This document shows, one piece after another, positions 25,022 through 63,972 of a stretch of DNA of 64,000 nucleotides (position 1 is the first letter of the stretch; each line of letters begins with the position of its first letter). Below the pieces are notes generated by a model that was given only the letters and a program-made list of their open reading frames with translations, did no database searches and was not told the DNA's origin. The position numbers were made by a program, and so were the translations under genes. Origin of the DNA: Vitis vinifera (taxonomy: Eukaryota > Streptophyta > Magnoliopsida > Vitales > Vitaceae). Location of the stretch: contig NC_081812.1 of the NCBI RefSeq assembly GCF_030704535.1, forward strand, positions 14,915,001-14,979,000. The letters are read 5' to 3'.

Positions 25022-28000
25022 ATGGGTTCTGGATTTGAAGGTACTTTCCTTTCTTTTCTTATTGGTTTGTTTGGCCGCCCCCGAAGATGGGAGAAAAGAG
25101 AATGAAATGAGATTGAAATGTTTTGAATCTAAAATTGTGATGCATTTTGCTTTTTATTTTTCTGCATTTTCTCAACAGCCGAACACTGCGTTTGATTGAT
25201 GAGTTTTGGATTTGTTGATCTGATTGTTTCAGTTGTTTATAATTTGCTGATTTTTATGGTTGATTGAAAAGGGGACGAGAGGGATCTGGAGAAGGGAGAG
25301 GCCCGGCCCCAGAACCTTAGCCATTTGAACGATCCGTCGCCGCTGCCTTCTCCATCGGCTGCGACCTCAGGGCCCGCGCTGGTTTTATCCAATTCTGGTA
25401 AGGCTTTGGGTATCTCTGCTTCCAGTAAGGCTTTGGGTGCATCGGCATCTAGTAAGGCTTTGGGTGTTTCGCCTTCCAGCAAGGCTTTGGTTCTGTCCAA
25501 TTCTGGTAAGGCTTTGGTTCTATCAAATTCCGGTAAGTCTCTGGTCCTGTCCAATTCTGGAAAGCGGATCGATCAAGCGGGAAAGAAGAAGTACGTGAAG
25601 CAGGTGACTGGGCGGCATAATGATACGGAGCTGCATTTGGCCGCTGCGCGTGGGGACTTGGAGGCAGTGAAGCAGATTCTGGGCGAGATAGATGCTCAGA
25701 TGACGGGAACATTGAGCGGGGCAGATTTTGATGCTGAGGTGGCAGAGATTCGGGCTGCAGTTGTGGACGAAGTGAATGAGTTGGGGGAGACAGCATTGTT
25801 TACTGCTGCAGAGAAGGGGCATCTGGATGTGGTGAAAGAGTTATTGCAGTACTCTACTAAAGAGGGCATTGCCATGAAGAATCAATCTGGATTTGATGCT
25901 CTACATATTGCTGCAAGTAAAGGTCACCAAGGTAAAGATAAATTGGATTTCATGCACATCTCCAATTTCATATTATTCCACTTCCTTTTCTCTTCTTGTT
26001 GTCTTCTTGTTGTTGTTTCAACTGAATCTAGCTGGAATAAACTGTCGTTGTATCCTCCACAGCCACCACCGGGTAATCCGGGGATTCCCAAATGGCAGGA
26101 ATGAACCCAAGCTGTTCCACACATCATGGCACTCACTCTTACCATTAGGCCATGCAGGGAATCTGTTAAATTCAATATCTCAAAGTTGTTATCCTAATAT
26201 GGGAAATGCAGAAAAAGGGAAATGTGAACGGGAGAATGGAAATGGGAAACCTAATTAGGAGCTCTATTGAGACAGATAGAATTGTTTCTGAGCCGGAGGA
26301 AACATCTGAAAATATTTTTTGCTATATCTATGGGACATCTATTATTAGTTTTTAATATGCAACTAAAGAGTAGTATTGAAAGTGTCAAGGGAACCCATGT
26401 ACACAGGAAACTGTACAAGAGCACCCAGCTGAAAAGAAAAAGAACCCAGAAAAAACTACACTGAGGGGATTGAAAAACAGGGCTCACAAGTTTCACACAG
26501 TCCATCACATTGTACTGGTTAAAGACTCTGGTACTTGGTGCCACCCTTTTAAATCTCTGGGGCAGGGACCCTATTCATTCCTTGTTGAGAACGATATTAA
26601 TTATGAAATTTCATAATTTTGTCAAAAAGTGTTTATAAGATATAACCAGGTTTTCCTGAAAGCATTGATGCTGCAAGTTTTGAATTGTGCAAGACAAGCA
26701 AAATGAAAAATGTGAGATTTATTCACAATTTTAATTGTTTTGTAAAAGGCAAATAGTTGGGGAAGTTATCTCTTGAATTCCTTGAGAAGTGAGAAGATAT
26801 TACAGAAAATATGCAATATTGCTGTATCTTTTTTTATTATATCTTGTTATATGTGCTTGCAAATTTTTATGGCACACGGCTGTCATGAAAAACATACAAA
26901 CTATTTCTATCTTCTTCTTTTTTACCTGGCTCTGGCCTCAGATATTTTCCATCCAAAATCAGCTGAATAGAGTTTAATAACCATCTCCATGCAGTAATCG
27001 TTGAGGTGCTATTGGACTATGACCCAGAGCTAAGCAAAACAGTGGGCCAATCAAATGCAACACCTCTAATATCTGCAGCAACAAGAGGGCATCTAGCAGT
27101 AGTTAATAATTTGCTGTCTAAAGACTCTGGCTTGCTAGAGATATCTAAATCCAATGGAAAGAATGCATTACATTTAGCTGCTCGGCAGGGGCATGTAGAT
27201 ATTGTAAAAGCATTGCTTGACAAAGATCCACAACTGGCAAGAAGGACTGATAAGAAAGGGCAAACTGCATTGCATATGGCTGTAAAAGGGGTTAGTCGTG
27301 AAGTGGTGAAGTTGCTTCTTGATGCAGATGCAGCCATTGTGATGCTCCCAGACAAGTTCGGTAACACAGCATTACATGTAGCAACCAGGAAAAAGCGAGC
27401 TGAGGTATTGATAAGATTGCTGCAAGTATATTCCATATCTGCATATTTTCTTAACTGTCCATGGGCCTAATTATCGCATTGTTTAACATAGAACTATTAC
27501 TCATATTATTTGATCAGTTTTGGATGAGTGGGCTGCACACCCTGGACTCACCCAAGTAAACCAAATCTTGAATTTAGGATAAACATTAGCCTTAGTTCAG
27601 TTAAAGCTTGGCCTGGCCCCATGAAGTATGATGCTTCACACATACACTTGCACATGTCTTATAGATTTATGTGGTACCATAAATTCACAAAATTAGTTTT
27701 GTCGCATAAGCAGAGCATGGTTTATCGCTTCACTGCCTTAATTTTCAAGCTAACATTTTGCTCTTGCGATGCACTCCTTTTTGGTGTCATCAATTTATGA
27801 TCTGCATTTTAAAAAAAATCAAGTTACCATTTCGGCAAAACAAATTTTATGTTGTTTTTTTGCAATGTTTAATGAGCATATTATTTCTTGAAAGTTTAAC
27901 TTTGGCAGGCCTGAACACTAACCCACGGCTCATATTATACAATGGGCTGGGTTCTGACTGACCTCAGCTTGGCTAAGTGCAGCTCAATTTGCACTTTTTT

Positions 28001-29841
28001 TGTTCTGGACAATAGCTTTTTAGGAGTTATTGAGGTTGGTTTGTTCATTTGGGTTGGTCTCTTTTGTATCCTGCCTATTTTTTCAACATAAGGTTTTTAA
28101 AGATTAACACCATGTTTGCCAAGAAAGTACCAAGGAAAGAAAAAAAAATGTTAAAGAAAATAATTTTCTTAAAAAAATATATAATTAAAAATCTACGTAT
28201 TTTCAAATTATTTAATTTTTATATAAAAGAGTTAAATCAAGTGAAGTGAGTTTGAAGTAGTAGATAGAAATAATTTATTGATTTTGAATCTATCTTTTAT
28301 TTTCCTTTCATTTTTCCTCAAAATTTTCAAGAACCAAACATAGCCTAAAAAAATTCTGCTGAAACAGCTGTGTTCTCTTTTTTTCCTTCCCAAATTGGGT
28401 GTAAGTAGTCCATTGAGCTAAAGGCCTAGACCTTATCTTTCATCTTTTGTAAATGAATGTTTTCCACACTAAAAGAATTGTATTGGAGGTACAAACTAGC
28501 GGAATGGAAAATAGAGTTAACAATCTAGGAATGTGATATAAGTTAAACCAATGGTAAAAAAACAAAATCTATGATAGGAATAATGATCCACAGCCAACCA
28601 TGTGGTTTGGGGTTGCGGGTGTGTGGTTGTGGTGTTATGGCTTTGCTAGCTATATGATTTTTTTTTTTGTTTTATAGACTTTGCTAGCTATATGATTGAA
28701 AATGCATGTCATATCAAGCTGCGTACATGTAAGGTATGCTTAGTCTTTTGGTACTCTAATCAGATTTTGTTTAGGCTTCAGATTAGTTTTTTGAATGTCA
28801 TATTCAATATTTATCTTTTCTTTTTGTATTTCTGGCTTTATCTGTGTGTACTGCCGTATTTTCGGTTTCCTTTTTCTTTTCATTGTGCAAACCTATCAGT
28901 TTTTTGTTATTGATTTTATGGGCATGCAAGAAATAATTAGAATTCCAAAGCAGATTATGGAAATTCTGTTAAGTATAAAATGCAGTAATCGTATCCCTTG
29001 CTATTTTGTGCAGATAGTGAATGAGTTGTTACTCCTCCCAGACACCAATGTGAATGCATTGACAAGAGACCACAAAACAGCCCTTGACATAGCTGAAGGA
29101 CTCCCTCTGTCTGAAGAAACCTCTGAGATAAGAGACTGCTTGGCACGGTATGGTGCTGTCAAAGCTAATGAACTGAACCAGCCACGTGATGAGCTTAGGA
29201 AAACTGTAACAGAAATCAAGAAAGACGTTCACACCCAGCTTGAACAAACCCGGAAAACCAACAAGAATGTGAGTGGGATTGCCAAGGAACTCCGCAAGCT
29301 CCACAGGGAAGGAATCAACAATGCCACCAACTCAGTCACTGTGGTGGCTGTGCTCTTTGCAACAGTTGCATTTGCGGCCATCTTCACAGTTCCTGGTGGT
29401 GATAATGACTTGGGGGTGGCTGTGGTGGTGGACAGTCCATCTTTTAAGATATTCTTCATCTTTAATGCCATTGCACTCTTCACATCATTGGCTGTTGTTG
29501 TGGTACAGATCACCCTGGTGAGAGGGGAGACGAAATCTGAAAGACGGGTCGTGGAGGTGATCAATAAGTTGATGTGGTTGGCCTCTGTTTGCACTTCAGT
29601 GGCCTTCATTGCTTCATCTTACATAGTGGTTGGCCGCCATAACAGGTGGGCTGCCATTCTTGTTACAGTTATAGGAGGAGTTACAATGGCAGGAGTTCTT
29701 GGTACTATGACTTATTATGTGGTGAAGTCCAAACGAACTCGGTTACTAAGGAAGAAAGAGAAGCATTTGAGGAGTGGTACCACTTCATGGCGTCACTCAG
29801 ATTTGTCTGATTCAGAAGTTAACCCAATTTATGCCATCTGA
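25022..29841 (+). CDS. ITN1: ITN1-like ankyrin-repeat transmembrane protein (PGG domain)
   Basis: Exons 25022-25040, 25272-25931, 26995-27404 and 29014-29841 (19+660+410+828 nt) join in frame through GT-AG introns into 638 residues. Residues 43-105 form a 9-residue tandem repeat. About eight ankyrin repeats follow from residue 123 (TELHLAAARGDL, TALFTAAEKGHLDVVKELL, ALHLAARQGHVDIVKALL, TALHMAVKG, TALHVATRKKRAE). A linker DVHTQLEQTRKTNKNV leads to the PGG membrane domain with four hydrophobic segments from about residue 471 (VVAVLFATVAFAAIFTVPGG). It matches Arabidopsis ITN1 (At3g12360) from the YVKQVTGRHNDTELHLAA region onward. ITN1 is a plasma-membrane protein linked to salt- and ABA-dependent ROS production; I infer a similar role here. 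A related gene lies 6 kb downstream on the same strand. Confidence 0.95.
25379..25567 (+). repeat. Seven 27-bp in-frame repeats in the ITN1-like N-terminus
   Basis: The encoded units are LVLSNSGKA, LGISASSKA, LGASASSKA, LGVSPSSKA, LVLSNSGKA, LVLSNSGKS and LVLSNSGKR. The repeat is exact in length (189 bp). The outer units resemble one another more than they resemble the middle three, suggesting local expansion. They place Lys/Ser-rich sequence just before the ankyrin domain. Confidence 0.9.
25985..26160 (-). mobile_element. tRNA-derived SINE in ITN1-like intron 2
   Basis: On the minus strand the element opens near CCCTGCATGGCCTAATGGTA (A-box-like TGGCCTAATGG). About 45 bp later comes GGGTTCATTCCTGCC (B-box-like), and it ends in a purine tail of AAC/AAG units. 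This is the layout of a plant SINE inserted antisense to the host gene. The ends are approximate. Confidence 0.5.
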
Positions 29842-30409
29842 TCTGCCTGGACTCTGGATCTGCTCGGGTCTCCTATCTTCCTTCCGGCCTTTTATCTACA
29901 GAAAAAACCAAAAGAAAAGAAAAACTGAAAGCAGTTGGGTGACCGGTGTTTTTGTCTGAAAAAGAAAACCAGAAGAAAAGAAAAAGGAAAAAAAAAAAAA
30001 AAGGTGGGAGCTGTTGGTGTTTTTGAGGGGGGCTTGTGCTGTAAATACCCGATCTGGGAACAAGTAGCATTCCTTATGGATTGATTCTCTGAAGGGGAAT
30101 GGATTTTTCTTCTTATTATTATATGTAAGAGCATTAAAGGAATACCGGTTGAGGGACCTGGAACACTTGTTGTATAACTTTTACATTATTACTCTGCATG
30201 GCTTAATCCGATTTGACCAGCTACTTATTTGTCTGATTCAGAACTTTTACATTTCATTTGTTTTTGTTTTAAATATTTAAATCGGTATGAACATGAATAA
30301 TTAAAACAAACCATGTTTGAGATTCGGAAAAAAAAAATCCATTTTTGACTTAAATAAGTCATTAAGACAGTTTACAAATCACTTTCTAGGTTCTACACAC
30401 ATTTCTGAA
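29842..30409. other. ITN1-like 3' flank
   Basis: This is the likely 3' UTR and downstream region. It holds an A-rich stretch at about 29960-30005 and no coding signal. The 10 bases 30400-30409 (CATTTCTGAA) are one copy of the target-site duplication of the next element. Confidence 0.5.
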
Positions 30410-31205
30410 GGACTTTTCTTAATAGTACGGTAATTTAAAAAAGTTATGCTTAAATTATTGTAGTAGAAGAAGTTATTACAAATATATGGTAGTTTTTACC
30501 ACATAGGAGAGAGAAATATATGGTAGTTTTTACCACATAGGAGAGAGGAGAGAGGGTGAACGGATAAATTTTTTTAAAACCAAAATCATCTTTTCAAACA
30601 AAAGAGACGAGTTCCATGAAAAAACAAATATATATATTTTTTTAAAAAAATCATCTTTCAAACAAAGGGAACTCGTCTCTTGAAGAGACGAGTTCCATGA
30701 AAAAAATATATATTTTTTATTAAAAAAAAAAAAACAGTTGCTGAAGGGAACTCGTCTCTTCAAGAGACGAGTTCCCATGGAAAAAAAAAAAAATATTTTT
30801 TATTTTAAAAAGAAATTCCCAAATTTAAATTTTTTTTTTTAAAAAAAAAAAAACAAACAAAAGCAATTCCTCCATGGTTTGTTTGAGATAACAAAGTACA
30901 TAGATCCTCCTTGAAAAATTTCATATCCTAAAAATCTAATTTTTGTTTGAAATAATTTTATTTTTAAGCAGAAAAAGCCGGAAATTTTTTTTTTATTTGG
31001 GAATTTTTAAAAGAAAAAATATTTTTTTTCCATGGGAAGTCGTCTCTTCAAGAGACGAGTTCCCTTGAGGAATTGGTTTTTGTTTTATTTTATTTTTCAT
31101 TTTTATTTTAATTTGGGATTTTTTTAAAATAAAAAATATATTTAAAAAAAAAAAAATTCCATGGGAACTCGTCTCTTGAAGAGACGAGTTCCCTTAGGAA
31201 TTATT

Positions 31206-31250
<45 letters not shown>

Positions 31251-32146
31251 GATTTTTTTTAAATAAAAAATATATTAAAAAAAAAAAATTTCCCATGGGA
31301 ACTCGTCTCTTGAAGAGACGAGTTCCCTTTAGCAATTTTTTTTTTTTTTTTTTTTTTAAATTTGAGATTTTTTTTAAATAAAAAATATATTTAAAAAAAA
31401 AATATTTTTTACATGGGAACTCGTCTCTTATTATTATTTTTTTTAATTTGGAATTTTTTTTTAAATAAAAATTATATTTTTTAAAAAAAAATATTTTTTT
31501 TTTCCATGGGAACTCGTCTCTTCAAGAGGGAATTGAAAAGACGAGTTCCCTTTATTAATTTTTTTTTTTTTTAATTTGAGAATTTTTTTTAAAATATATA
31601 TATATTTTTTTTAAAAAAAAAATATTTTTTTTCCATGGGAACTCGTCTCTTGAAGAGACGAGTTCCCTTAAGGAAATTCTTTTTTTTTTTAGACTTCTGG
31701 CAGGCTGCTGTGTAGAAACATGCTTGCTGCTTTTGGAACAGAAACTGCAAAGCTTGTAAAATATTCTTGATGGAAGACAAAAGGCTGATGATTACTTAGA
31801 TATATATATTTTTTTTAAAAAATTTATTTATTTTTACATAGGAACTCGTCTTTTCAAGAGACGAGTTCCTTGAAGAATTGTTTTTTTTTTTTTTTAATTT
31901 GGAAATTTTTTTTTAAATAAAAAATATTTTTTTTCCATGGGAACTCGTCTCTTCAAGAGACGAGTTCCCTTGAGGATTTTTTTTTTTTTAAAATAAAAAT
32001 TATATATATATTTTTTTAAAAAAATTTTCCATGGGAACTCGTTTCTTGAAGAGACGAGTTCCCTTTAGCAAATTTTTTTTTATTTGGGAATTTTTTTTAA
32101 AAAATATTTTTTTTACATGGAACTCGTCTCGTTCCCTTGAGGAATT

Positions 32147-32187
<41 letters not shown>

Positions 32188-32859
32188 GAATTTTTTTGAA
32201 AATATATATATATATATATATTTTCCATGGGAAGAGGAAATTCTTTTTTTTTTTTTTTTTTTAATTTGGGAATTTTTTTAAAAAGATATATATATATATA
32301 TATTTTCCACGAGTTCCTTTGAGGAATTGCCTTTTTTTTTTTTTTTTTTTTTTTTAATAATTTGGGAATTTCTTAAACAAAACATATATATATTTTCATG
32401 GAACTCGTCTCTTCAAGAGACGAGTTCCATTGAGGAAAAAAATGTTTTTTTTTAAAAAAATAATTTGAGAATTTTTTTTTGTTTTAAATATTTTTTTTTT
32501 AAGATACGATTTCCCTTGAGCTTGTTTTTTGTTTTTTTTTTTTTTTTTTTTATAATTTGGGAATTTAAAAAAATATATATATATTTTTTTCTATGGGAAC
32601 TCGTCTCTCAACTGTTTTTTTTTTTTTAACAAAAAAAATATATATATATTTTTTCATGGAACTCGTCTCTTCAAGAGACGAGTTCCTTTTGTTTGAAAGA
32701 TGATTTTGGTTTTAAAAAAATTTATCCGTTCACCCTCTCTCCTCTCTCCTATCTCCTCTCTCCTATGTGACAAAAACTACCATATATTTGTAATAACTTC
32801 TTCTACTATAATAATTTAAGTATAATTTTTTTAAATTACCGTACTATTAAGAAAAGTCC
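30410..32859. mobile_element. Non-autonomous Mutator-like element with long TIRs, 2.45 kb
   Basis: The termini GGACTTTTCTTAATAGTACG and its complement CGTACTATTAAGAAAAGTCC head inverted repeats of roughly 190 bp (30410 to about 30610, and about 32660 to 32859). CATTTCTGAA flanks both ends (30400-30409 and 32860-32869), a 10-bp target-site duplication of Mutator-type length. There is no transposase frame. The inside is a run of palindromes separated by poly-T/poly-A spacers, plus one non-repetitive segment at 31690-31795. The left TIR carries an extra tandem copy of about 35 bp (GGTAGTTTTTACCACATAGG). Superfamily assignment rests on TSD and TIR length; the terminal bases are not diagnostic. 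Confidence 0.85.
30603..32687. repeat. Array of 31-bp palindromes inside the Mutator-like element
   Basis: The unit is GGGAACTCGTCTCTT, a central G or C, then the reverse complement of the arm. Full or near-full copies start at about 30667, 30746, 31034, 31163, 31297, 31508 (with an insert), 31637, 31841, 31939, 32033, 32399 and 32658. Half or decayed copies lie near 30602, 31414, 32116, 32230 and 32596. Most carry CCATGG or CATGG on one flank. Spacers of roughly 70-200 bp hold T-runs, AATTTGGGAATTTTT and A-runs. Confidence 0.9.
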
Positions 32860-35800
32860 CATTTCTGAAGGTGACCCTAATTGTCTCCATTGGGCTGCGC
32901 CCTCCCCCACAAGGAGACAATGTAGGCGTTTGACCCGGGCCATCTAACTGGGTTGTATTTGGGGTAAAAAGATAGGGGTGAAGATTAGATATGCAGCTAT
33001 ATCGTCCAGGGGTTCTGTATAGCGTTGGTCCATCCCTTGTTTGTGTACAATATTTTAATCTGCCAGTGCTGGAGTGGGACCCGGTTGGACTTATGAAAGG
33101 CCTCACCACGTAAGCGGTTGACATAAACTGATAAACTGATGAACCCTGAGGGAATGGTCAAAAAGTTAGCTACGGGACATGTTAGCATTCCACCTTGTTG
33201 ATAATGCTACGCAATATGAGGAAACTATCAACCACGGGTGCTGACTCTAATCGCATTTACAACTATTTTTTTTGTTTAGTATCAACCATCCAAGAGTCTG
33301 AGCGGTTAACATACCACCTACTCCCCCACCTTTTCTCATAAATATCTCCATAAAAAAGGGCCCCAGTACGAGCAGTTGTTCCATTGACTGGTGCAAGACA
33401 TGGTTTCTTGTCTACAGATTCCTCCCAGGGAGCCCCTTAACCTCCATCTCATTAATTTCAATCCATCTGAGATTGTGTATCCAAGTCAGTAGTTGACCTG
33501 ATAGTTGTTTCCAATTTGGTTGTGAAGCAATCCAAACCATATTTTAGAAAGAGAGATATAGTCAGGTTATACCGCTAATTTAGTGCCCACTTACTAATAA
33601 TGTCATACAAAAAAAAATATATATCTGATTATTAACCAATTACAAGTACAACAACATGAGCAGAGAGAATCATCAGCCCCAATTCGCTTCACATGGGTGC
33701 TGTCTAGACGATGTTTATTAACCAATTAACCCCAAGAATTGGAATTTCCCAACCATGATACAACGAGTATGCTCTAGGAAAATTACTGTGTTTGAGACAT
33801 TATAGCAAGCACGGTGCCTTTCAAATATGACCAAACACAAGTACTTTGGCCGGAGTGGACACTGTCCAAATGCAATGCAATGAGAACGCGTTTAAAGCGG
33901 ATTAGTTAGTGTGGGGTCTGGCTATAGTCTTGAGTGGTACTTTTTTGGTATCTATTAAAAAGGAGACACTATCAAAAAGAGATTATCAATCAGCTCTAGG
34001 TCCAATTTGCATGTTTTTTACTTTTTATACTTTCATACTGGCTTAAATCTTATTATATATATTTAACGTTTTTGATCTTTTGTTTTATAGGTATCATTCC
34101 AATGCCTTGGTATTTTTCGTTAACGCCGCACCATCACGTTACAAGTGGCTAAATGGCTAGCACCATTCCCAATGTGATGCTGTTATTCTTTCACCGTTAA
34201 CCCGCAATCATGTGGCAGGGGATAAGTTGAAGAAATATAATCCTTAAATTATGAATTTAATCATTTTTATACTTTTTATTGAAAAATAATCAAATTTTAA
34301 GGTAAATATTAAAAAAAGAATGATGATATTTCCATTCAAATGAAAAAAAAAAAGGGGGGGGGGGGGGGGGGCGGGGGGGTGTAAAAAGACCAAATTTCAA
34401 AAATTAGATTTTGAAAATCTTTTTAATCAAATAAACCAAAATTCAACCACCATGTGAAAGCACAAGTTCAAGGGAAAAGTAGGATCTCATTTGCGGGGAC
34501 CCTTGCCCCCTTGCGAGGTGATTATTAATGAGCGAGTGCGGCATGATGGAAAGCGTGTGTGACAAAGTCCACACAACACAAGGCCTGAGGCCCTGAAGGG
34601 CCCTATATCTATGGCGGCCACACCCAACTCTGCCTCGGTCAACACATCTCTTTCAAAATTGCAATCATATCACTTAGACATTTAACCTCCCTCAATTAAA
34701 ATGGCCCACCTTTTTCTTGCTTTTGGATATCACCACCCACTTGGAACTGTAGTTTTATTCACCATAGAATTTTGATTTCTAATTGACCTCAGGGGAAAAT
34801 CTACTTGACCAAATTCATCGAAAACTTAAAGCCTGTTTGTTTACTCATGAAGATCAGAATGATTTCAAGATAAAAAGTTCTTTATTTTTTAGATTTTCCA
34901 TGGCCCCACGCTGATACCACGTCTGCCGTTGGGATGGTAATCAACGAACGATGGGCCCTTTTTTCCTAAGCTTATTATTATTTGCCATTTTTAGTGGCTG
35001 AAACGGTGAGAAAAGAAAACTGGAGTCCATAACAAACGGCCAGTTGCTTGCAAGCTTTGCGCAAGCCAACAACCATCATTCGACGTCTTACTTTTGCCTT
35101 CCCTCTCTTCATCAAGTTTCAAAAGGTTCCAAACTCTTTTTTGTTTTGTTTCTTCGTTTCGTTTTTCCTCCTGTTCCTCGTCAACCACACTCAGGGTTAT
35201 TGAACTCCATTGAATTTTTTTTGTATGCCTCATATGGTGTCTTTATCTTGTTCTGTTTCATTCATGCCTCTGTTGGGTTTTTGATTCCCATTTCTCTTCG
35301 ACATGTGCGGCAGCTAGAATGTTTCTATATCTCCCAGCTATATTTGTTCTTTCAGAGCTGATTTAATATGGTGAGACTGAAAAACTCTTTCTTCAAACCC
35401 CGGGTGAATATTTAATTTTATTATTGTTGTTTCAAACTTTTTTTTCTTTTGAATTCGGGATCTTGAAGGTAGAACCCAAGTCCCCAGTTTTCTTGTTTTG
35501 TTGAATAAATTCAAATAATTCAAATTAGGTACAGTTCTCAAACTCCACAGTCAACTTATATTGCTTTTTTCTTATACAGACGATGATGGCAATGATGGTT
35601 TATGAAAAAAATTGTGATATACTGAATCCGAATCAGTATAAGAAAATTGGGATATATACTAACTCAAATCTTAAGAGAGACTGTAGGGTGTTATCATCTC
35701 GAAGAACGTATTGAATATTTTTTTTTTTTAGGTTCAGATGATGTCAGAAAACGTCATGAGCCCCTGGGGTCAAACTTCCGGGTTTCTGACGAGCTCATTT

Positions 35801-35971
35801 CTGGAATCATCCAGATGATCATGTCTAGATAGAGTTGCAAATTGATCAATTGTGATGGCAGGCAGTAGGTGAATTTTGATCTGGGTTTCTCATGAAACAG
35901 TAAGATTTGGATTAAGATTCTAGAAGCATCAAGGGGCATTTTTTATTTTTCCAAGTTTGGAATTGGTTTTG
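32860..35971. other. Intergenic region and probable 5' leader of the second ankyrin gene
   Basis: 32870-33200 is a less AT-rich repeat-like stretch with a short hairpin (ATTGTCTCC...GGAGACAAT) and no recognised coding domain. 35000-35950 has pyrimidine-rich stretches, as expected of a promoter and 5' UTR of the gene at 35972, but I cannot place its transcription start. Confidence 0.5.
34343..34379. repeat. A11/G18/C/G7 homopolymer tract
   Basis: A run of A passes directly into a long G run broken by a single C. It may be a true G-rich tract or a poorly resolved assembly point. Confidence 0.8.
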
Positions 35972-38900
35972 ATGGAGGCTCCGGCGAGGCAGCAAAGCTT
36001 CCGCCGGAAGAACATCACTAAGCAGTTGACGGGAAAACGGGATGATACTTCATTACATTCTGCAGCAAGAGCGGGAAATTTGGAATTGGCTTTAGATATT
36101 CTTTCCAAGTGTGAAGATGCGGAGGCGTTGAAGGAATTGTTGTCTAAGCAGAATCAATCAGGTGAAACTGCTCTTTATGTTGCTGCTGAATATGGTCACT
36201 GTGATTTGGTTAAGGAGATGATGGAGTACTATGATGTCTCCTCTGCTGGTATCCAAGCAAGAAATGGCTACGATGCCTTCCACATTGCTGCCAAGCAAGG
36301 GGACTTGGGTAAGCCTCTATGGATCTTACCTTGTGTCTGTTCCCCTCATATGTATTTCTTGGTATCAAAAGTTAGCCTTGTTTCAGTCTTTTGCACGGCA
36401 TAAGGATGGAGTTCTCAGAATTTTCTAAGTATACTTCAACTATTGAAGAAAAATTTACACTACAAATTGAATTTGTTGTATATATATTTGAACCCCTGGA
36501 ATTGCTCACAACTTTCCTTCAAGAGATTTCTTGAATTTTGTCACTGTACTTGATCTTGTTAACAGCAAAAATGCAAATTTAAGTTATTATTTTCCCTAAG
36601 TGTTTTGGAATGTTATTGGATTAATGTCGAGATTATTGTGAAGGCTTTGTCATGATTGTTGTGCTACTGGCTTCCTTAATTGTTTCCCTCTTTCTTAAGT
36701 TATATAGGAGTTGGATCACCCTAATTTTGAATTGCTGATCATGTTGCAGAGGTCTTGAAGGTCCTCATGGAGGCCATTCCAGAAACTTCCATGACTGTTG
36801 ATCTATCAAACACTACAGCATTGCACACTGCTGCAGCACAAGGTCATATTAGTGTAGTCAGTTTCCTCTTGGAGAAAGGCAGCAGTCTGGCCAACATAGC
36901 AAAAAGCAATGGAAAAACCGCCTTGCATTCTGCTGCTCGGAAGGGGCATTTGAAGGTTGTGAAGGCCCTATTGAGCAAAGAGCCTGGAATTTCAACAAGG
37001 ACTGATAAGAAGGGCCAGACAGCTCTCCATATGGCAGTTAAGGGACAAAATATTGAAGTGGTGGACGAGTTGATGAAGTCAGATCCTTCTTTGATAAACA
37101 TGGTTGATGCCAAGGACAACACTACATTGCATGTAGCTGTCCGGAAGTGTCGGGCTCAGGTGATTAAAGTCTTTCTCCAATCTTTTGGTCTATCAGCCGA
37201 ATATTAAAGTTTCTATTAAGTTATAGGCCTATACTTGTTTGCTGGGTTTTCAATGAGAATCATAATAACTCATCGTTCCTTGTGTACATAGTTGAATCAG
37301 AATTAATAATTGAAAAGCAAAATAAAAAATTAATGAAAAACTATTTTTTCATGTTGAAGAAGTAGTTGCTTTCTGTTTTGCAGCTATTAAATTTTAGTTA
37401 GGCCTGCTTGGAAGGTTCAGTCAACTCAAAATAGTGTCCTAGATCCATGTCCAAGTCCTACAGTACCAGATTCTTTCACTAGTGCATCTCAATGGAGATT
37501 CCTTTGCCCTAATATGATAAAAGAACCTTTTAGTTCCTTTATATGCAGTGGTTCATAACTTTGAATCTCATTAGATAAAACGGAAGGCAAATTAGAGCAT
37601 CTTAATATCCCTTGTTTCTTCTCATGGATGCCTTCACAAAACTGTGGGAATATTAGTGCTAAAGCATCTTAGTGAATTTTCTATAAATTTATACCATTCC
37701 CCAATGTAACTAGACTCTTTATCATTGAAATCACTATCATTTATTTCAGTTTTCTTATATCTTAAGGAAGGGACTCTTAGGTTTATCTGATTGTTATTGA
37801 ATTCAGCCTCCATATTTGAAAAATGAAATTTTGTGAATAATGTCATGATTCATCACAAGGTGATGACCATCTGAATTACATTTGTTCAGGGCATGGAGTC
37901 TTGGATAATGGATTTAATATGTTTCCACAAAGTATTTAGGCCATAGTTTGTTAAAAGCACCATGCCTTTTCTAATCCTGAACAGAGTATATTTTCCATCT
38001 GTTGTACCTATAGAATGGAGTACACATTTACTCCCACTCCCCTGTCATGCCAGAACAACCAAAAGACAGAGCCATAAGGATTCATGCCAGATTCTCCTTT
38101 TGTAACATCAAAAGGGTTGGGATTTTTATGATCCATGTTGAACTATCCTTTGAATTGGCTTTAATAGAGTTCAATTAGTCTGTCACCAATTTAGTTTGCA
38201 CAGATACTAGATATTATCAACTAGAGATGCTAGAAGAACAGAATCCCTCTTACAAAATTGGAAGTCCTGACATTGCACTCTGCTATTGGTGCAGATAGTT
38301 CAGCAGCTACTAAGTCACAAAGCAACTGATACAGAAGCCATCAACAAGTCTGGGGAAACTGCTCTTGACACAGCAGAGAAAACTGGGCACGCTGAGATCA
38401 CAACCATACTTCAGGAGCATGGAGTCAAAAGTGCTAAATCCATCATGCCTCCGACAAAAAACAAGGCCCGAGAACTCAAACAAACTGTAAGTGACATTAA
38501 GCATGAGGTCCATCACCAGCTCGAGCACACCCGCCAAACACGTAAACGTGTGCAGGGTATAGCCAAGCGGATCAACAAAATGCATTCAGAAGGGCTCAAC
38601 AATGCAATCAACTCCACCACAGTTGTAGCTGTCCTCATTGCCACTGTTGCTTTTGCAGCCATTTTTAATGTTCCAGGCCAGTATGCTGATGATCCAGAGC
38701 ATGTCCCTCCTGGGCTCTCTCCTGGAGAAGCGAACATTGCCCCTAGAACTCCCTTCATGCTTTTTTTCATCTTTGACTCCCTTGCCCTATTCATATCTCT
38801 GGCTGTTGTGGTGGTTCAGACTTCAATTGTGGTCATAGAGAGGAAGGCAAAAAAGAAAATGATGGCTATTATTAACAAACTAATGTGGTTGGCTTGTGTG

Positions 38901-39173
38901 CTGGTCTCTGTGGCCTTTCTTTCACTTTCTTATATCGTTGTTGGAACCAAGGAAAGGTGGTTGGCTGTTGGAGTAACTGGAATAGGGACTGTGATCATGG
39001 CAACAACGTTAGGAACAATGTGTTATTGGGTGATTGTGCACCGGATCGAGGCTAAAAAGTCGAGGAGCATTCGAAGGTCAACCATGAGTAGTAGGTCCCG
39101 TTCATCTCCTATGTCAGTTATGTCAGATTCCGAGATCCTGAACAATGAGTATAAGAAACTCTACGCCATTTGA
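35972..39173 (+). CDS. Ankyrin-repeat PGG-domain membrane protein (At5g02620-like)
   Basis: Exons 35972-36308, 36750-37159 and 38295-39173 (337+410+879 nt) join in frame into 541 residues. The ATG at 35972 is preferred because the frame upstream has no ATG. After a basic lead (RRKNITKQLTGKRDDTSLH) come about eight ankyrin repeats: TALYVAAEYGHCDLVKEMM, DAFHIAAKQGDLEVLKVLM, TALHTAAAQGHISVVSFLL, TALHSAARKGHLKVVKALL, TALHMAVKG and ALDTAEKTGHAEITTIL. The PGG-type domain starts near residue 357 (VVAVLIATVAFAAIFNVPGQ) with four membrane segments. The C-terminus is LYAI. It resembles Arabidopsis At5g02620 from memory. It shares intron positions and a 410-bp middle exon with the upstream ITN1-like gene, so the two are paralogues, probably ancient. 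Its specific role is unknown; relatives act in stress and defence signalling. Confidence 0.94.
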
Positions 39174-44157: not shown

Positions 44158-45249
44158 TCATATGCTACAAAGTGCTGGTCTTTCTTGATCTTCACAAACT
44201 GCAAACCTTGAACCAGATAGTGAATAGAACCCAACTTCAGCTACAGTTTCTCTTAAACTAAACAACTGCTGGGACTGTTTACAGTAAGCAATTGCTCCCT
44301 CAATTGAAATCTCAATCTCTGCGTTGGCGCTGCTGCACCTCTTGAGCTGCTGTAAGTCATAAAACCCATTTGAATTAAAGGAAAAGGAGGAGCAAGAAGA
44401 AGAACCGGATGAAGAAAATGATGATGACGAGCACTTGGTTGGAGAATGGCGTCCAATCGCCCCTGAGAATGACCTTCTATGGCTATTAACACCATCATCA
44501 ACCATCTCTTTGTCAATGCTCTTCATGACAGTAGGTGACATTTGGTATCGCTCATTTTCAATCTGTTCAAATGGGGTTTTCTTCGCTATCTTCATGTACT
44601 TACTTAGACACTGCTTGCCTTTAGAAACATTGCACGCTTGCTCATTGCAGGCTGCCTTGGCACAAGACTCATCTGAACAACCAGACTTGCTAAACAGCGA
44701 CTTGAGGTAAGTTCGGGAAGCGTTAAACTTTTGACCCAGTGAGGACTGCTTGAATTTCATGAACCAAGACTTCTTCGGTAGTTCATGGACGGAGCCGCTC
44801 ACGTCAGATGACCATTCAAAGAAGTACGCATCTGGGTTGAGCTCATTACTGACCCTGCGAGACTCTGATGGTGAGATGCATGATTCCAGTGGGGTGCTGG
44901 TATTAGTGGGGGGCTTGATAGTGCTGGCCATAAATGGAATGGTGAAGAACTCCTCGTCAAAAGCTTCCTCTTTGTCCTCAAATGCTGCAGCGTTGGAGTT
45001 GTGAAGGAGTTTCTGCACCATTTGCAAGCGAGGTGGGAGGTGAAGAGGAAGGAGTTTTCCCTTGTAGAAGAGTTCATCAGCAGGGGAAATGAATTCTCTC
45101 CCATGAGAGATTGAAGACATTTGAAACTCAAACTCTCGAGATTGTGGAGGAGAGTTAATGGAGTAACATAAGAAGTTGGCTGAAGGGCTCACTTCCATGT
45201 CTATGTAGTCTTCATCTGCATAGTTATACGAAGGAAGGTTTGGGGCCAT
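44158..45249 (-). CDS. MAKR4: Membrane-associated kinase regulator (MAKR4-like)
   Basis: This single-exon gene encodes 363 residues. The N-terminus has the family's acidic opening (YNYADEDYIDMEVSP), followed by FEFQMSS and the LPPRLQMVQKLL block. The MAKR signature WFMKFKQSSLGQKFNASRTY, then LKSLFSKSGCSDESCA, is rich in Lys/Arg and typical of the membrane-anchoring zone. The Ser-rich tail ends with the conserved SIEGAIAYCKQSQQ motif. MAKR proteins are related to BKI1 and regulate receptor-like kinases at the plasma membrane, with roles in brassinosteroid and root-development signalling. The MAKR4 label is by resemblance and could be MAKR2/3-type. A GA-repeat leader adjoins the ATG. Confidence 0.85.
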   Translation of the reverse strand: MAPNLPSYNYADEDYIDMEVSPSANFLCYSINSPPQSREFEFQMSSISHGREFISPADELFYKGKLLPLHLPPRLQMVQKLLHNSNAAAFEDKEEAFDEEFFTIPFMASTIKPPTNTSTPLESCISPSESRRVSNELNPDAYFFEWSSDVSGSVHELPKKSWFMKFKQSSLGQKFNASRTYLKSLFSKSGCSDESCAKAACNEQACNVSKGKQCLSKYMKIAKKTPFEQIENERYQMSPTVMKSIDKEMVDDGVNSHRRSFSGAIGRHSPTKCSSSSFSSSGSSSCSSFSFNSNGFYDLQQLKRCSSANAEIEISIEGAIAYCKQSQQLFSLRETVAEVGFYSLSGSRFAVCEDQERPALCSI

Positions 45250-59472: not shown

Positions 59473-59484
59473 TCCCCCTCAAGC
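59473..59484 (-). other. Polypurine tract of the copia element
   Basis: CTTGAGGGGGAG directly precedes the LTR on the minus strand, matching the plus-strand priming site of plant copia elements. Confidence 0.8.
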
Positions 59485-62400
59485 TGGAGAATATATATCA
59501 TATAATCCCAGCTTGCAAGTTAAGTCTTCGAAGTTAGGCCTAGGTAAAGCTTTGGTGAGGATGTCTGCGGTTTGGTGCTTGGTAGGAACATAGTTTAATT
59601 TGACCGTCTCACTAGTCACCTTCTCTGTGATAAAGTGTCTGTCAATCTCAACATGCTTGGTCCTGTCATGCTGCACGGGGTTCTTTGCTATGCTTATAGC
59701 TGCCTGATTATCACACATCATCAGAATTGGAGATGAACTCATTTGTCCCAGTTCACTAAGAACCCCTTTTATCCAAATCCCTTCACAGATTCCCTGTGCA
59801 AGAGCTCTGTACTCAGCTTCTGCACTACTTCTAGCTACAACTGATTGCTTCTTACTCCTCCAGGTAACAAGATTTCCCCAGACAAAAGAACAATATCCGG
59901 AAGTGGACCGCCTGTCAATGATGTTTCCTGCCCAATCCGCATCTGAGTATACTTCAGTGTCACGGTTCTCTGTCTTTCTGAAGAATAGGCCTTTCCCTGG
60001 TGTCATTTTTAAATATCTAAAAATCCTGTAGACTGCTTCCATGTGTTCCTCAGTGGGGGGGCTGTGCATGAATTGACTTACAGCACTCACTGCAAAGCCA
60101 ATATCTGGCCGAGTGTGTGAAAGATAAATCAAGCGCCCGACAAGCCGCTGATATCTCCCCCTGTCTACCGGTGTACTTTCTTTCTCGATACCAAGTTTTT
60201 TCTGACTATCCATAGGAGTATCAATTGGTTTGCATCCAAGCATACCGGTCTTCTTAAGAAGATCGAGTATGTATTTTCTTTGAGAGACTACGATTCCCTT
60301 TCTTGATCTAGCCACTTCCATACCAAGGAAATATTTCAAATTTCCAAGGTCTTTAACTTCAAACTCTTCTGACAAATACTTCTTCAAATTCTGTAACACC
60401 CCCATATCATTTCCAGATAGAATAATATCATCGACATAGACTATCAATATGGCCAATTTCCCGGCATGAGACTTCTTGACAAATAGAGTATGATCAGCCT
60501 GACCTTGTTTGTAGCCCAGCTTCAGGACTGCTTTTGTGAATCTATCAAACCAGGCTCGAGGAGATTGTTTAAGGCCGTACAAGGATTTTTGGAGTTTGCA
60601 AACCTGATTCTTTGCCATACTTTCTTCGAAACCAGGTGGTATTTCCATGTAAACTTCCTCTTCTAGGTCCCCATTTAGAAACGCATTTTTTATGTCCAGT
60701 TGTTGCAAGCACCAATCTTGATTGACAGCCAATGAGAGAAGGATCCTGATAGTGTTCAGTTTTGCAACAGGAGCAAAAGTCTCCTGATAATCTATCCCAT
60801 AGGATTGTGTAAACCCTCTAGCTACCAAACGAGCCTTGAATCTTTCGACTGATCCATCTGCTTTGTATTTTATGGTGAAAATCCACTTGCACCCCACAGG
60901 CCTCTTCCCAACCGGCAAATCTGTGATAGTCCACGTCCCATTCTTCTCAAGTGCATCAATCTCATCTTGTACTGCCTTCTTCCATTCTGAAATTTTTAAT
61001 GCCTCTTGTATTGTGTTGGGAACCTGAGTATCATCAAGAGAAGTAGCAAATGCTCTGTAAGATGGTGATAACCCTTCATACGTAACATAATTCCCAATTG
61101 GATGATCTGTACATCTCCTAACACCCTTCCTCAATGCAATTGGCAAAGTAGAATCACCAATGCTGGGAATTAACACCTCTCCAGCCCTATCCTCACCTAT
61201 GTTCTCTTCAGGAAGACTTGAATTGGAGTCAATATATTGGCCACATGTTGACTGTGATCCGTGCTCTAATTCCTGTCTTTTCCTCCTCCTGATGTAAACT
61301 TGTAAGTTCTCATTAGCAAGTTGTGGGGCTATAGGTTGAATAGGCATGGGAGACTGGATGGTCACGGGAGAAGGAACATTTGTGTGCTGGGCTAGCTGAA
61401 CTGATGGCGGCATGGGTGTGGACAACTCAGTGGGCGCGAATTGGGAAGGATTTGGTGACTCTGAGTGAAAAGAAGGTACACCCTCAAGAAAAGACTCCCA
61501 AACTTGATGTTCATTCATGCTCTCCCCCTGAACATGAGATTTGGGATAGAAGAAGACATGTTCAAAGAAAGAGACGTCCATGGTGGTGTAAAATCTTTTG
61601 TTGGTTGGAGAATAGCATTTGTACCCTTTTTGGGTTGGAGAATACCCTAGAAAAATGCACTTATTTGCTCGAGGAGCAAATTTGCTACGATTTTGAGGAT
61701 ACACATGAACGAATGCCGTACAACCAAATACTTTGAGTGGTAAATCAGAAGAGGCGGCATGGGTGTGAGGAAACTGTTTTAAGAAAAGTTGACATGGGGA
61801 TTGAAAGGTAAGCACTCTGGATGGCATACGGTTAATCAAATAGGTAGCTGTGAGAATAGCTTCCCCCCAGAAATAGTTTGGAACATTAGAGGAAAACATA
61901 AGGCACCGGGCAACCTCCAAGAGATGTCTATTCTTGCGTTCGGCCACCCCATTTTGTTGTGGGGTGTCAACGCAAGAACTTATGTGGATAATGCCATGAT
62001 TTTGAAGATAAGTACTGAGACTACTAGTAAAGTATTCCTTTGCATTATCTGACTTGAGGACTTGTATTTTGGAATTGAATTGATTTTGAACCATAAGATT
62101 GAAGGTTTGAAAAATGTGCCCGACCTCTGACTTTTCTTTCATAAGGAAAACCCATGTTACCCGAGTATGATCATCAACGAATGTCACAAACCATCGAGTG
62201 CCAGAAATATTTTTTATCCGGGAGGGACCCCACACATCACTATGTACTAGAGAGAAAACAGTCGAAGGTTTGTATGGGATTTGAGGATATACTGTTCGAG
62301 TATGCTTTGCAAACTGACAAATTTCACAGTGATAAGATGCTGGATTTTTATTGATAAATAATTTGGGAAACAATTTTGCAAGGTAAACAAAGCTAGGATG

Positions 62401-63972
62401 ACCAAGGCGATAGTGTAACATTATAATCTCACTATCTTTATTGACCTTAGAATTTGACACAGAATTGAAAGAATCTGACATACTCTGAGACTGTACGCAA
62501 CTTGCTTGAAAGACTTGGTTTGAGAATTGGCCACATGAAAGGAGGTAGAGCCCGGAACACAGTTCAGCACTGCCAATCATCTTCCCTGATTTCAAGTCCT
62601 GAAAAACACACAAGTTTGGATAGAATTTAGTAACACATTGGAGATCATGAGCCAATTTGCTAATGGACAAAAGATTACAATCCAAGTTTGGAACATGGAG
62701 GACAGAGTCAAGATATAAGTCTTTAGTAAGTTTTATAGAACCTGTCCCGACAATTTTTGACTTTGAACCATCAGCAATATGGACGGATGAATGACCATTA
62801 CTTGGCTTGTAATTTTGAAGAATGGCAGCATCTCCTGTCATGTGATCAGAAGCACCTGTGTCTACTATCCACGGCCTCATTCCTCCTCGATTAGCAGTGA
62901 AGGCTACACCGATAGTACTGCCACTGCCAACTTGGCTTAATAATTTCTGTAGCATCTCCATCTGCTCTTTGTTGAATGGACTCGGCTCGGGAACAGATGT
63001 GCTCTCAGAGTTGGCAGCCACGTGTGCTCTGCCATCTCTGTCAAACCGTCGCTTTGGTTTCCAATCTGCAGGTTTGTCATGAAGCTTCCAGCAAGTCTCC
63101 TTATAATGGCCTGGTTTCTTACAATAATCACACCAAGGCCTATCCCGTTTCTGACGATCTCCACCACTACTATTAAATGACCGAGCAGCAAGGGCAGAGG
63201 CATCCAATGTTGGGGCAGGTTGCTCTTTTGATCCCATCATCACTTTCTTTCTACTTTCTTCACGCCTAACCTCTGAAAAAGCCTCCCTGAGACTTGGCAG
63301 GGGTTTAATGCCCATGATTCGGCCTCTAACATCATCCAATTCCCTGTTTAGTCCTAGGAAGAACTTGAACAGTCTCTTTTGTTCCACAATTTGCCTGTAT
63401 GTTGCTGCATCATCCGAACATTTCCATGAGTGAGTCTCAAATAAGTCAAGTTGCTGCCAATACCTTGTGAGTGTGTTGTAATACTGAGTAACTGACTGCT
63501 CTCCTTGGCGGAAGTCATGTAGAGCTGATTCAACCTGAAACAGTTCTGAAGTATTTTCAGAACTTGAGTAAGTTTCTTTGGTTGCATCCCATATGTCCTT
63601 TGCAGTCCCAAACAGTAAGAAATTTTCGCCTATGTCATTGTTCATGGAATTGATAAGCCATGACATGATCATGCTGTTTTCAATCTTCCACTTTCTGAAA
63701 CCCGGTTCCGTAGTTTCTGGCATGACTGCTTCTCCAGTGAGGTACTCATCCTTTCCTTTACCGCAAATGAACAGCAACACAGATTGTGACCACTGTAAAT
63801 AGTTATGGCCATTTAATTTGTGTCCTGTGATGAGAATAGGAGAGGAATCATTGCCACCAAGGTTTGGAATTTCAGATCTGCCCCCTGATTCTGGTGACGT
63901 GACGCTGGATACTTGTGATGATGCCATTCCGTATTTTGTCATGGACCGGAAAGGTAGAAGAACACTTCTCAA
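59479..63972 (-). CDS. Ty1/copia Gag-Pol polyprotein, intact
   Basis: One 1497-residue frame carries the copia order. Gag comes first (LNGHNYLQWSQSVLLFI), with a CCHC zinc knuckle CDYCKKPGHYKETC near residue 280. Protease follows (WIVDTGASDHMTG, about 369), then integrase with HHCC (HYRLGHPSF...CEICQFAKH) and the DDE residues in HSDVWGPS, LKSDNAKEY and NGVAERKNRHLLE. Reverse transcriptase has FKARLVARGFTQ, LDIKNAFLNGDL and the catalytic YVDDI near 1178. RNase H has YSDADWAGN and SSAEAEYRAL. All catalytic residues I can identify are present and no frame is broken. The true start may be one of the in-frame Mets 10-15 codons in. Integrase precedes RT, which defines copia rather than gypsy. Confidence 0.95.
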   Translation of the reverse strand: MRSVLLPFRSMTKYGMASSQVSSVTSPESGGRSEIPNLGGNDSSPILITGHKLNGHNYLQWSQSVLLFICGKGKDEYLTGEAVMPETTEPGFRKWKIENSMIMSWLINSMNNDIGENFLLFGTAKDIWDATKETYSSSENTSELFQVESALHDFRQGEQSVTQYYNTLTRYWQQLDLFETHSWKCSDDAATYRQIVEQKRLFKFFLGLNRELDDVRGRIMGIKPLPSLREAFSEVRREESRKKVMMGSKEQPAPTLDASALAARSFNSSGGDRQKRDRPWCDYCKKPGHYKETCWKLHDKPADWKPKRRFDRDGRAHVAANSESTSVPEPSPFNKEQMEMLQKLLSQVGSGSTIGVAFTANRGGMRPWIVDTGASDHMTGDAAILQNYKPSNGHSSVHIADGSKSKIVGTGSIKLTKDLYLDSVLHVPNLDCNLLSISKLAHDLQCVTKFYPNLCVFQDLKSGKMIGSAELCSGLYLLSCGQFSNQVFQASCVQSQSMSDSFNSVSNSKVNKDSEIIMLHYRLGHPSFVYLAKLFPKLFINKNPASYHCEICQFAKHTRTVYPQIPYKPSTVFSLVHSDVWGPSRIKNISGTRWFVTFVDDHTRVTWVFLMKEKSEVGHIFQTFNLMVQNQFNSKIQVLKSDNAKEYFTSSLSTYLQNHGIIHISSCVDTPQQNGVAERKNRHLLEVARCLMFSSNVPNYFWGEAILTATYLINRMPSRVLTFQSPCQLFLKQFPHTHAASSDLPLKVFGCTAFVHVYPQNRSKFAPRANKCIFLGYSPTQKGYKCYSPTNKRFYTTMDVSFFEHVFFYPKSHVQGESMNEHQVWESFLEGVPSFHSESPNPSQFAPTELSTPMPPSVQLAQHTNVPSPVTIQSPMPIQPIAPQLANENLQVYIRRRKRQELEHGSQSTCGQYIDSNSSLPEENIGEDRAGEVLIPSIGDSTLPIALRKGVRRCTDHPIGNYVTYEGLSPSYRAFATSLDDTQVPNTIQEALKISEWKKAVQDEIDALEKNGTWTITDLPVGKRPVGCKWIFTIKYKADGSVERFKARLVARGFTQSYGIDYQETFAPVAKLNTIRILLSLAVNQDWCLQQLDIKNAFLNGDLEEEVYMEIPPGFEESMAKNQVCKLQKSLYGLKQSPRAWFDRFTKAVLKLGYKQGQADHTLFVKKSHAGKLAILIVYVDDIILSGNDMGVLQNLKKYLSEEFEVKDLGNLKYFLGMEVARSRKGIVVSQRKYILDLLKKTGMLGCKPIDTPMDSQKKLGIEKESTPVDRGRYQRLVGRLIYLSHTRPDIGFAVSAVSQFMHSPPTEEHMEAVYRIFRYLKMTPGKGLFFRKTENRDTEVYSDADWAGNIIDRRSTSGYCSFVWGNLVTWRSKKQSVVARSSAEAEYRALAQGICEGIWIKGVLSELGQMSSSPILMMCDNQAAISIAKNPVQHDRTKHVEIDRHFITEKVTSETVKLNYVPTKHQTADILTKALPRPNFEDLTCKLGLYDIYSPA

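Follow-up and report, generated by a model that had tools for sequence, protein, structure and literature searches.

The locus described here raises the question of why the interior of a transposable element should be made of palindromes, and of what keeps those palindromes alike. It lies in a window of 64,000 nucleotides of the Vitis vinifera genome, this being the whole stretch of DNA that was analysed. A sequence-only reading of the window had described a terminal inverted repeat (TIR) element with TIRs of about 190 bp, a 10 bp target site duplication (TSD) and an interior filled with a palindrome array. The element is confirmed by the TIRs, which align over approximately 190 bp with few mismatches, as is seen in the long-TIR, MuDR-type Mutator-like elements (MULEs), and by the perfect CATTTCTGAA on both sides. 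The array is also real, with 11 palindromes (7 or fewer mismatches to the consensus) and 7 half-sites, which are solitary arms with 2 or fewer mismatches, identified in an interior that is 77% A+T. The consensus palindrome is 15 + 1 + 15 nt, GGGAACTCGTCTCTT-S-AAGAGACGAGTTCCC, and is matched exactly by five of the 11, with 1 mismatch by three, with 2 by two and with 3 by one. When the element was resampled 100 times under a first-order Markov model, no palindrome (arms of at least 12 with at least 3 G/C) arose. The parts of the element are as follows, with palindromes and half-sites given no strand.

30410-32859: whole element, 2,450 bp
30400-30409, + strand: TSD CATTTCTGAA, left copy, perfect 10 bp
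30410-30602, + strand: left TIR, begins GGACTTTTCTTAATAGTACGG
30602-30616: half-site at the left TIR's inner boundary; a whole palindrome occupies the matching place in the right TIR
30667-30697: palindrome, left block, centre G, 1 mismatch
30746-30776: palindrome, left block, centre C, exact
30873-30980, - strand: loop segment between the two unit orientations
31034-31064: palindrome, centre C, 1 mismatch
31163-31193: palindrome, centre G, exact
31297-31327: palindrome, centre G, exact
31415-31550: three half-sites (31415, 31508, 31536), being broken palindromes
31637-31667: palindrome, centre G, exact
31690-31800, no strand: non-array segment within the right block, shared among the fetched loci by L016 only (95%)
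31840-31870: palindrome, centre C, 3 mismatches
31939-31969: palindrome, centre C, exact
32033-32063: palindrome, centre G, 1 mismatch
32118-32609: half-sites (32118, 32501, 32595)
32399-32429: palindrome, centre C, 2 mismatches
32657-32687: palindrome extending into the right TIR, centre C, 2 mismatches
32667-32859, - strand: right TIR
32860-32869, + strand: TSD CATTTCTGAA, right copy, perfect 10 bp

The left TIR contains a perfect 34 bp tandem duplication (30480-30547) that the right TIR does not have. Groups of ORFs resembling ankyrin-repeat genes, the domain being recognised by eye, are present on either side of the element (25325-29841 and 35957-39173), and the element starts approximately 0.57 kb past the first of these. 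Elsewhere in the window are a 32 bp minisatellite of about 18 copies, GTGGCTCTGAACGCC...GAAAAGATG, that is partly within an ORF (1133-1706), a gene for a Membrane-associated kinase regulator-like protein on the minus strand (44158-45249), for which the nearest named matches are plant homologues, and a single open frame of 1,497 aa, also on the minus strand (59479-63972), that resembles, by eye, a complete Copia gag-pol.

The array is not a local or assembly artefact, since it belongs to a family that is dispersed through the genome. The search with the arm and TIRs that had been proposed from the window identified a total of 2,364 exact matches (1181 + 1183) to the 15-nt arm in the 496-Mb genome (21 contigs), against 0 + 1 for the reversed-pattern control. 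There are 1,111 perfect 29-nt palindrome cores and 210 TIR ends (first 38 nt, 3 or fewer mismatches) genome-wide, with none for the control in either case. The 100 arm matches listed all group into a few clusters on C1. Seven arm clusters were fetched, and every one of them contains palindrome arrays. The 30-nt core had no matches in viral contigs and none in bacterial or archaeal genomes.

Counts given here are for 21 two-ended elements, from the seven arm clusters and 19 further places found by the TIR search, which gave 20 stretches, two of them being one locus. Left out were L010, L016/L017, L019, L024, L027 and L029, which have only one end or contain a nested insertion. The 21 elements are 0.9 to 4.2 kb long and have the array throughout, the number of palindromes per element, which the sequence-only reading had suggested comparing, varying from 4 to 25. 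Together they contain 261 palindromes and 112 half-sites. MULE TSDs are typically about 9 bp (range 8 to 11). The TSDs of this family are in keeping with this, being an exact 10 bp for 12 elements, 1 mismatch for one and 9 bp for one, with none recognised for seven. The flanks of L030 are reverse complements of each other (TGAGAATTTCC and GGAAATTCTCA) instead of a direct duplication. A 5.6-kb member (L040, C5:2092700-2098600) has an LRR-type gene fragment between family ends, and end pairs with the same spacing are also found near C5:2200731 and C5:2308610. These are about 108 kb apart, which suggests a triplicated segment.

Each unit of the array is a palindrome with an A/T-rich spacer, at a median spacing of 119 bp. 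When classed by their flanks, some of which are unclassifiable, the units of the left block share one direction and those of the right block have the reverse, with a single switch of variable position in most elements and an extra inverted block in L035. The small palindromes are therefore nested in one large foldback, having long inverted arms of tandem units (4 to 25 palindromes) and a loop segment. The whole of L035 mirrors itself, with 98% identity over 95% of its halves in ungapped columns (90% by gapped BLAST), and L014 does so more weakly. In 19 of the 21 elements, half of some other element fits at least as well as the element's own other half. A palindrome with symmetric flanks sits at the orientation switch in L015, L025 and L033. 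The earlier prediction that a transcript would fold into many hairpins within a long foldback is supported by the 889-nt relative L009, with a folding energy of -484 kcal/mol against -206 +/- 6 for 20 shuffles.

The assignment to the Mutator-like class, made from the window alone, holds in light of a full-length relative at C9:1138168-1152452, between two TIR1 ends that are 14.3 kb apart. Its TIRs are 1 mismatch from those of the family, its TSD is TATAGGATA with a difference at the tenth base (9/10), and it has 47 palindromes or half-sites in three blocks. The transposase is encoded on one strand and has Pfam matches above the cut-off to PF10551 MULE (1e-18), PF03108 DBD_Tnp_Mut (1.3e-11) and PF04434 SWIM (1.4e-9). 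On the other strand are plant mobile domain (PMD) ORFs, identified by PF10536 PMD (4.1e-50 and 3.4e-10). This transposase copy has one in-frame stop; open transposase frames of 860 aa with 98-99% identity are present at C9:1848354 and C7:150855, and a TIR1 end is found 4.2 kb away from the C7 copy.

In the window element, the loop (30873-30980) joins 37 bp that match the C9 transposase ORF (97%) to 73 bp that match non-coding DNA within the left array of the C9 element (99%), and the loop segment is also present in L016, L021, L028, L032 and L034 (96-98%). Since the loop is made of two fused segments of the C9 element, the window element and the short members are deletion derivatives of the MULE. 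The window copy belongs to a MuDR-type MULE foldback family, in which it is a non-autonomous member that has lost internal sequence. As regards Pack-MULEs, which carry captured fragments of host genes, the loop of the window element comes from the MULE itself, and the LRR-type fragment mentioned above was seen in L040. Two other candidates for the source element were rejected. The extra length of a 12.2-kb copy on C7 (L016/L017) contains ORFs that by eye are of LTR-retrotransposon gag type, and a group of 829-aa MULEs (L036) lacks both the family TIR and the palindrome in the 5 kb to either side. Near the unrelated 829-aa MULE, two copies of an inverted repeat with a 6-nt loop, TTTCTTCATGGTGCGAAAT, form a short tandem array (L036, 249-430). 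Five ORFs scanned from the long members L037, L038 and L040 gave no transposase match.

Three spellings of the palindrome middle were found, CTC, ATC and [AG]GT, matched on both arms. This symmetric respelling among sister MULE families, which was absent from the sequence-only reading, is the strongest sign that the palindrome is maintained. The third spelling is that of L042 (C3:10483772), where a transposase of 81% identity is open for 854 aa with PMD ORFs adjoining. This locus has no TIR1 (6 or fewer mismatches over 21 nt) and no CTC palindrome. Its 11 palindromes are TGGAA[AG]GTGTCTCTT-S-AAGAGACAC[CT]TTCCA, in which the core GTCTCTT-S-AAGAGAC and the GGAA/TTCC of the CTC palindrome are kept and the intervening three bases differ, in a matched way on the two arms. 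The [AG]GT spelling occurs at 162 places (control 0) and, among the 50 listed, 48 match across the arms at the [AG] site as A:T or G:C and 2 do not, although the two symmetric unit types within this spelling may reflect common descent, not covariation. For the ATC spelling, the search required a change only at arm position 6 on both sides and allowed nine base combinations. It found 53 places, and among the 50 listed all are A:T across the arms, 33 being exactly ATC/GAT. Genome-wide cores number 1,111 CTC/CTC, 16 mixed CTC/ATC and at least 33 ATC/ATC, against 1.45 of the last expected under independent arms.

Each sister MULE family is associated with its own palindrome spelling adjoining its own grade of transposase. 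The association was scored over 116 transposase rows of 893 candidates and the listed fraction of the places (50 of 53 ATC, 50 of 162 [AG]GT and 100 of 210 TIR), the grades being bins of identity to one C9 piece, not a tree. Four of the 7 copies with at least 95% identity have a listed TIR1 end within 12 kb, as does one of the remaining 109, at 44% (Fisher 2e-5). Of the 17 copies at 82-94%, 6 have a listed ATC palindrome within this distance, against none of 99 others (4e-6), and of the 10 at 60-81%, 8 have a listed [AG]GT palindrome within it, against none of 10 others in the listed contig range (7e-4). At L044, for example, seven ATC palindromes adjoin a 92% copy, and at L045 a CTC palindrome and TIR1 adjoin a 98% copy, with an ATC-type half-site also present. 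No array was found downstream of a 65-72% copy (L043, 3.5 kb) or adjoining an 80% copy at C18:31051817 (L046, 3 kb), where arrays may lie farther out. There is some mixing of spellings, with one ATC place of the 50 listed and 9 of the 16 mixed palindromes within 5 kb of TIR1 ends, and an AAATCGTCTTTT palindrome among the units of L015.

In the C9 element the transposase and PMD ORFs converge on an array that separates them, but in L042 they share one direction and no array separates them, which suggests an inversion at the array. Tail ORFs past the PMD are RG-rich (GRGRGRGRGR; L039 5152-6216 and L042 8315-8743) and, judged by eye, could possibly be nucleic-acid-binding.

Within the CTC family, the contrast between conserved arms and variable spacers that had been seen in the window was confirmed on 199 oriented units. 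Arm positions 2 to 30 are conserved at 89-100%, the centre excepted, and conservation has sharp edges at the palindrome; that of the 2 bases just past it results from the criterion used for orientation. In 20 elements conservation is greater in the arms than in those elements' own TIRs, which were sampled partly by likeness to the window TIR, for all three classes of site. Divergence from consensus is 16/3584 for arms against 39/2518 for TIRs at A/T sites, 120/2560 against 60/759 at C/G outside CpG, and 51/1024 against 17/80 at CpG. The decay of C/G in the arms is mainly C-to-T and G-to-A (CpG 5.0%, non-CpG 4.7%). At arm positions 2 to 15 there are 182 single-arm changes and 5 double changes, 3 of the 5 being complementary, where 4.7 double changes are expected. 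Double changes are at the chance level, so there is no correction of one arm by the other within the family, and such correction is ruled out as the main origin of the symmetry inside it.

The flipping of the centre base between G and C is clear in 261 palindromes of the 21 elements (G 127, C 123, T 8, A 3). It had been taken as a sign that copies occur in both orientations, and this part of the reading was not borne out. Orientation is set by the flanks and the centre is independent of it (G58 and C52 in plus units, G46 and C56 in minus units), so the centre base is rejected as an orientation marker. The centre shows no correlation between neighbours (106/221 equal at lag 1) and no excess between elements. 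Centres agree in 15 of 20 pairs with flanks at least 95% alike, in 59 of 106 at 90-95% and in about half of those lower, although the pairs are not independent. Since the centre is independent of orientation, neighbours and element, the palindrome must be flipped, or swapped between units of opposite orientation, without its flanks. We infer that palindrome turnover proceeds by short exchange between palindromes, without one arm being copied onto the other. Within one element, the left and right TIRs also resemble each other more closely than randomly paired TIRs do (0 of 10,000 permutations).

Our reading, to which we give slightly better than even chances, is that the palindromes are an array of dyad-symmetric candidate recognition sites for a protein encoded by the element. 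The reader would be the transposase or the PMD protein of the full-length element, probably acting as a dimer. Array length would change through duplication and loss of units, leaving half-sites behind, and copies that are almost pure array would be mobilised in trans. The greater constraint on arms than on TIRs, the sharp palindrome edges and the symmetric respelling all argue for such sites, and the pairing of spelling with transposase grade in each family is expected if site and protein diverge together. The effect of binding could be better end recognition, as has been argued for Galileo, or it could instead be the countering of host silencing, as for VANC in VANDAL, which would fit the PMD ORF. 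Against recognition sites, homogenisation of a neutral array within each family would also make spellings differ by family, the separation of spellings between families is incomplete, and binding alone does not predict a coin-toss G/C centre.

The neutral account is that of concerted evolution, with a palindromic minisatellite spread by unequal exchange, short gene conversion and hairpin-templated replication errors. The symmetry would then be a by-product, the spelling would drift in each family, and no protein would read it. It is the main rival, although rather unlikely as the full explanation. In its favour are arrays of 4 to 25 palindromes among 21 elements, 112 half-sites beside 261 palindromes, an element's own TIRs resembling each other more than random pairs do (0 of 10,000 permutations), the full-length inverted repeat of L035, and a centre that is uncorrelated with neighbours or element yet agrees in 15 of 20 pairs with flanks at least 95% alike, against 59 of 106 in the next class of these non-independent pairs. 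However, frequent hairpin-templated repair would correct the arms, and the 182 single and 5 double changes (4.7 expected) speak against this. Nor does it account for conservation that ends at the palindrome edge, or for arms that are more conserved than the TIRs although the units are older duplicates. The arrays do turn over, as seen in the coin-toss centre and the half-sites, and whichever account is correct, this turnover belongs to it.

That the transcripts of the array fold and feed siRNA that would silence the family, or host genes in trans, is improbable. The extreme foldability of L009 and the decay from C to T and G to A, similar at CpG (5.0%) and non-CpG (4.7%) sites as expected of methylation in all contexts, are consistent with it, but such foldability follows from any inverted repeat, and RNA pairing should select for compensated changes between the arms, whereas within the family their number is that expected by chance. 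Extrusion of the palindromes as cruciforms that aid in forming or rebuilding the giant foldback, for example through fold-back replication with one palindrome as primer, with no sequence-specific reader, we consider even less probable. L035 and L014 (2 of 21) do mirror themselves more than any other element, and the symmetric-flank palindromes of L015, L025 and L033 are at the orientation switch. Yet in 19 of 21 elements another's half matches at least as well, and structure alone would not hold one sequence over about a thousand copies.

The MULE and the Foldback layout are themselves already known, and several systems resemble the grape family in part. In Arabidopsis, the VANC anti-silencing proteins of VANDAL MULEs are described as binding motif arrays and diverging with them (PMC5735166; PMC10398659). 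The motifs are 8-9 nt, YAGTATTAY and AGTTGTCC/AC, and the word palindrome does not occur in that report (PMC5735166). The likeness is in family-specific arrays that differ between related MULEs, here as three spellings with three grades of transposase. The grape family differs in its 31-nt palindrome, PMD ORF, long TIRs and foldback, and in that binding is predicted here from sequence. Its second ORF is a PMD (PF10536) by Pfam. Galileo of Drosophila has long, internally repetitive inverted ends of varying length (PMC3688188; Tetris, PMC4079207), with further THAP transposase sites reported in the tandem repeats of these ends (PMC3688188). It belongs to the P superfamily, and its units are not described there as palindromes (PMC3688188).

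Tm1 of root-knot nematodes belongs to the Mutator superfamily and has 8-10 bp TSDs and composite, Foldback-like TIRs that consist of tandem repeats; it differs in its 13-15 bp repeats, Phantom-like transposase and animal host (PMC3169594). The Medicago family MuTAnT consists of foldback MULEs in a plant and includes an autonomous member with mudrA, but its elements are about 0.2-1.6 kb and insert at TA microsatellites, and no palindrome array is reported in the available text (PMC4486113). The grapevine Mutavine elements are likewise MuDR-type MULEs with long TIRs, but their TSDs, when found, are given there as always 9 nt (PMC2528002), while 10 nt is the rule in the palindrome family. No description of symmetrically respelled palindrome arrays between MULE families was found in the open-licence literature searched, and the arm sequence was absent from it; the family may have a catalogued name.

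The grape family bears on the purpose of long repeat arrays in Foldback-type elements. A role of Foldback and Phantom repeats as binding sites 'remains untested' (PMC3688188), and for PMDs captured by MULEs an anti-silencing role is 'tempting to speculate' (PMC5418596). Returning to recognition sites, a more specific form can be proposed tentatively, at somewhat less than even chances. The PMD protein or the transposase would be a sequence-specific dimer that reads the array, with each MULE family having its own protein-palindrome pair. The system would be self-addressing and possibly anti-silencing, convergent with VANC but based on perfect palindromes, with the arms changing together at the birth of a family and the non-autonomous copies being parasitic, near-pure arrays. 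The three site spellings, three grades of transposase and PMD, and open transposase frames of 854-860 aa are natural matched pairs, and cross-binding is therefore directly testable. If the reading is true, the family-specific palindrome would act like an address label for the family's own protein.
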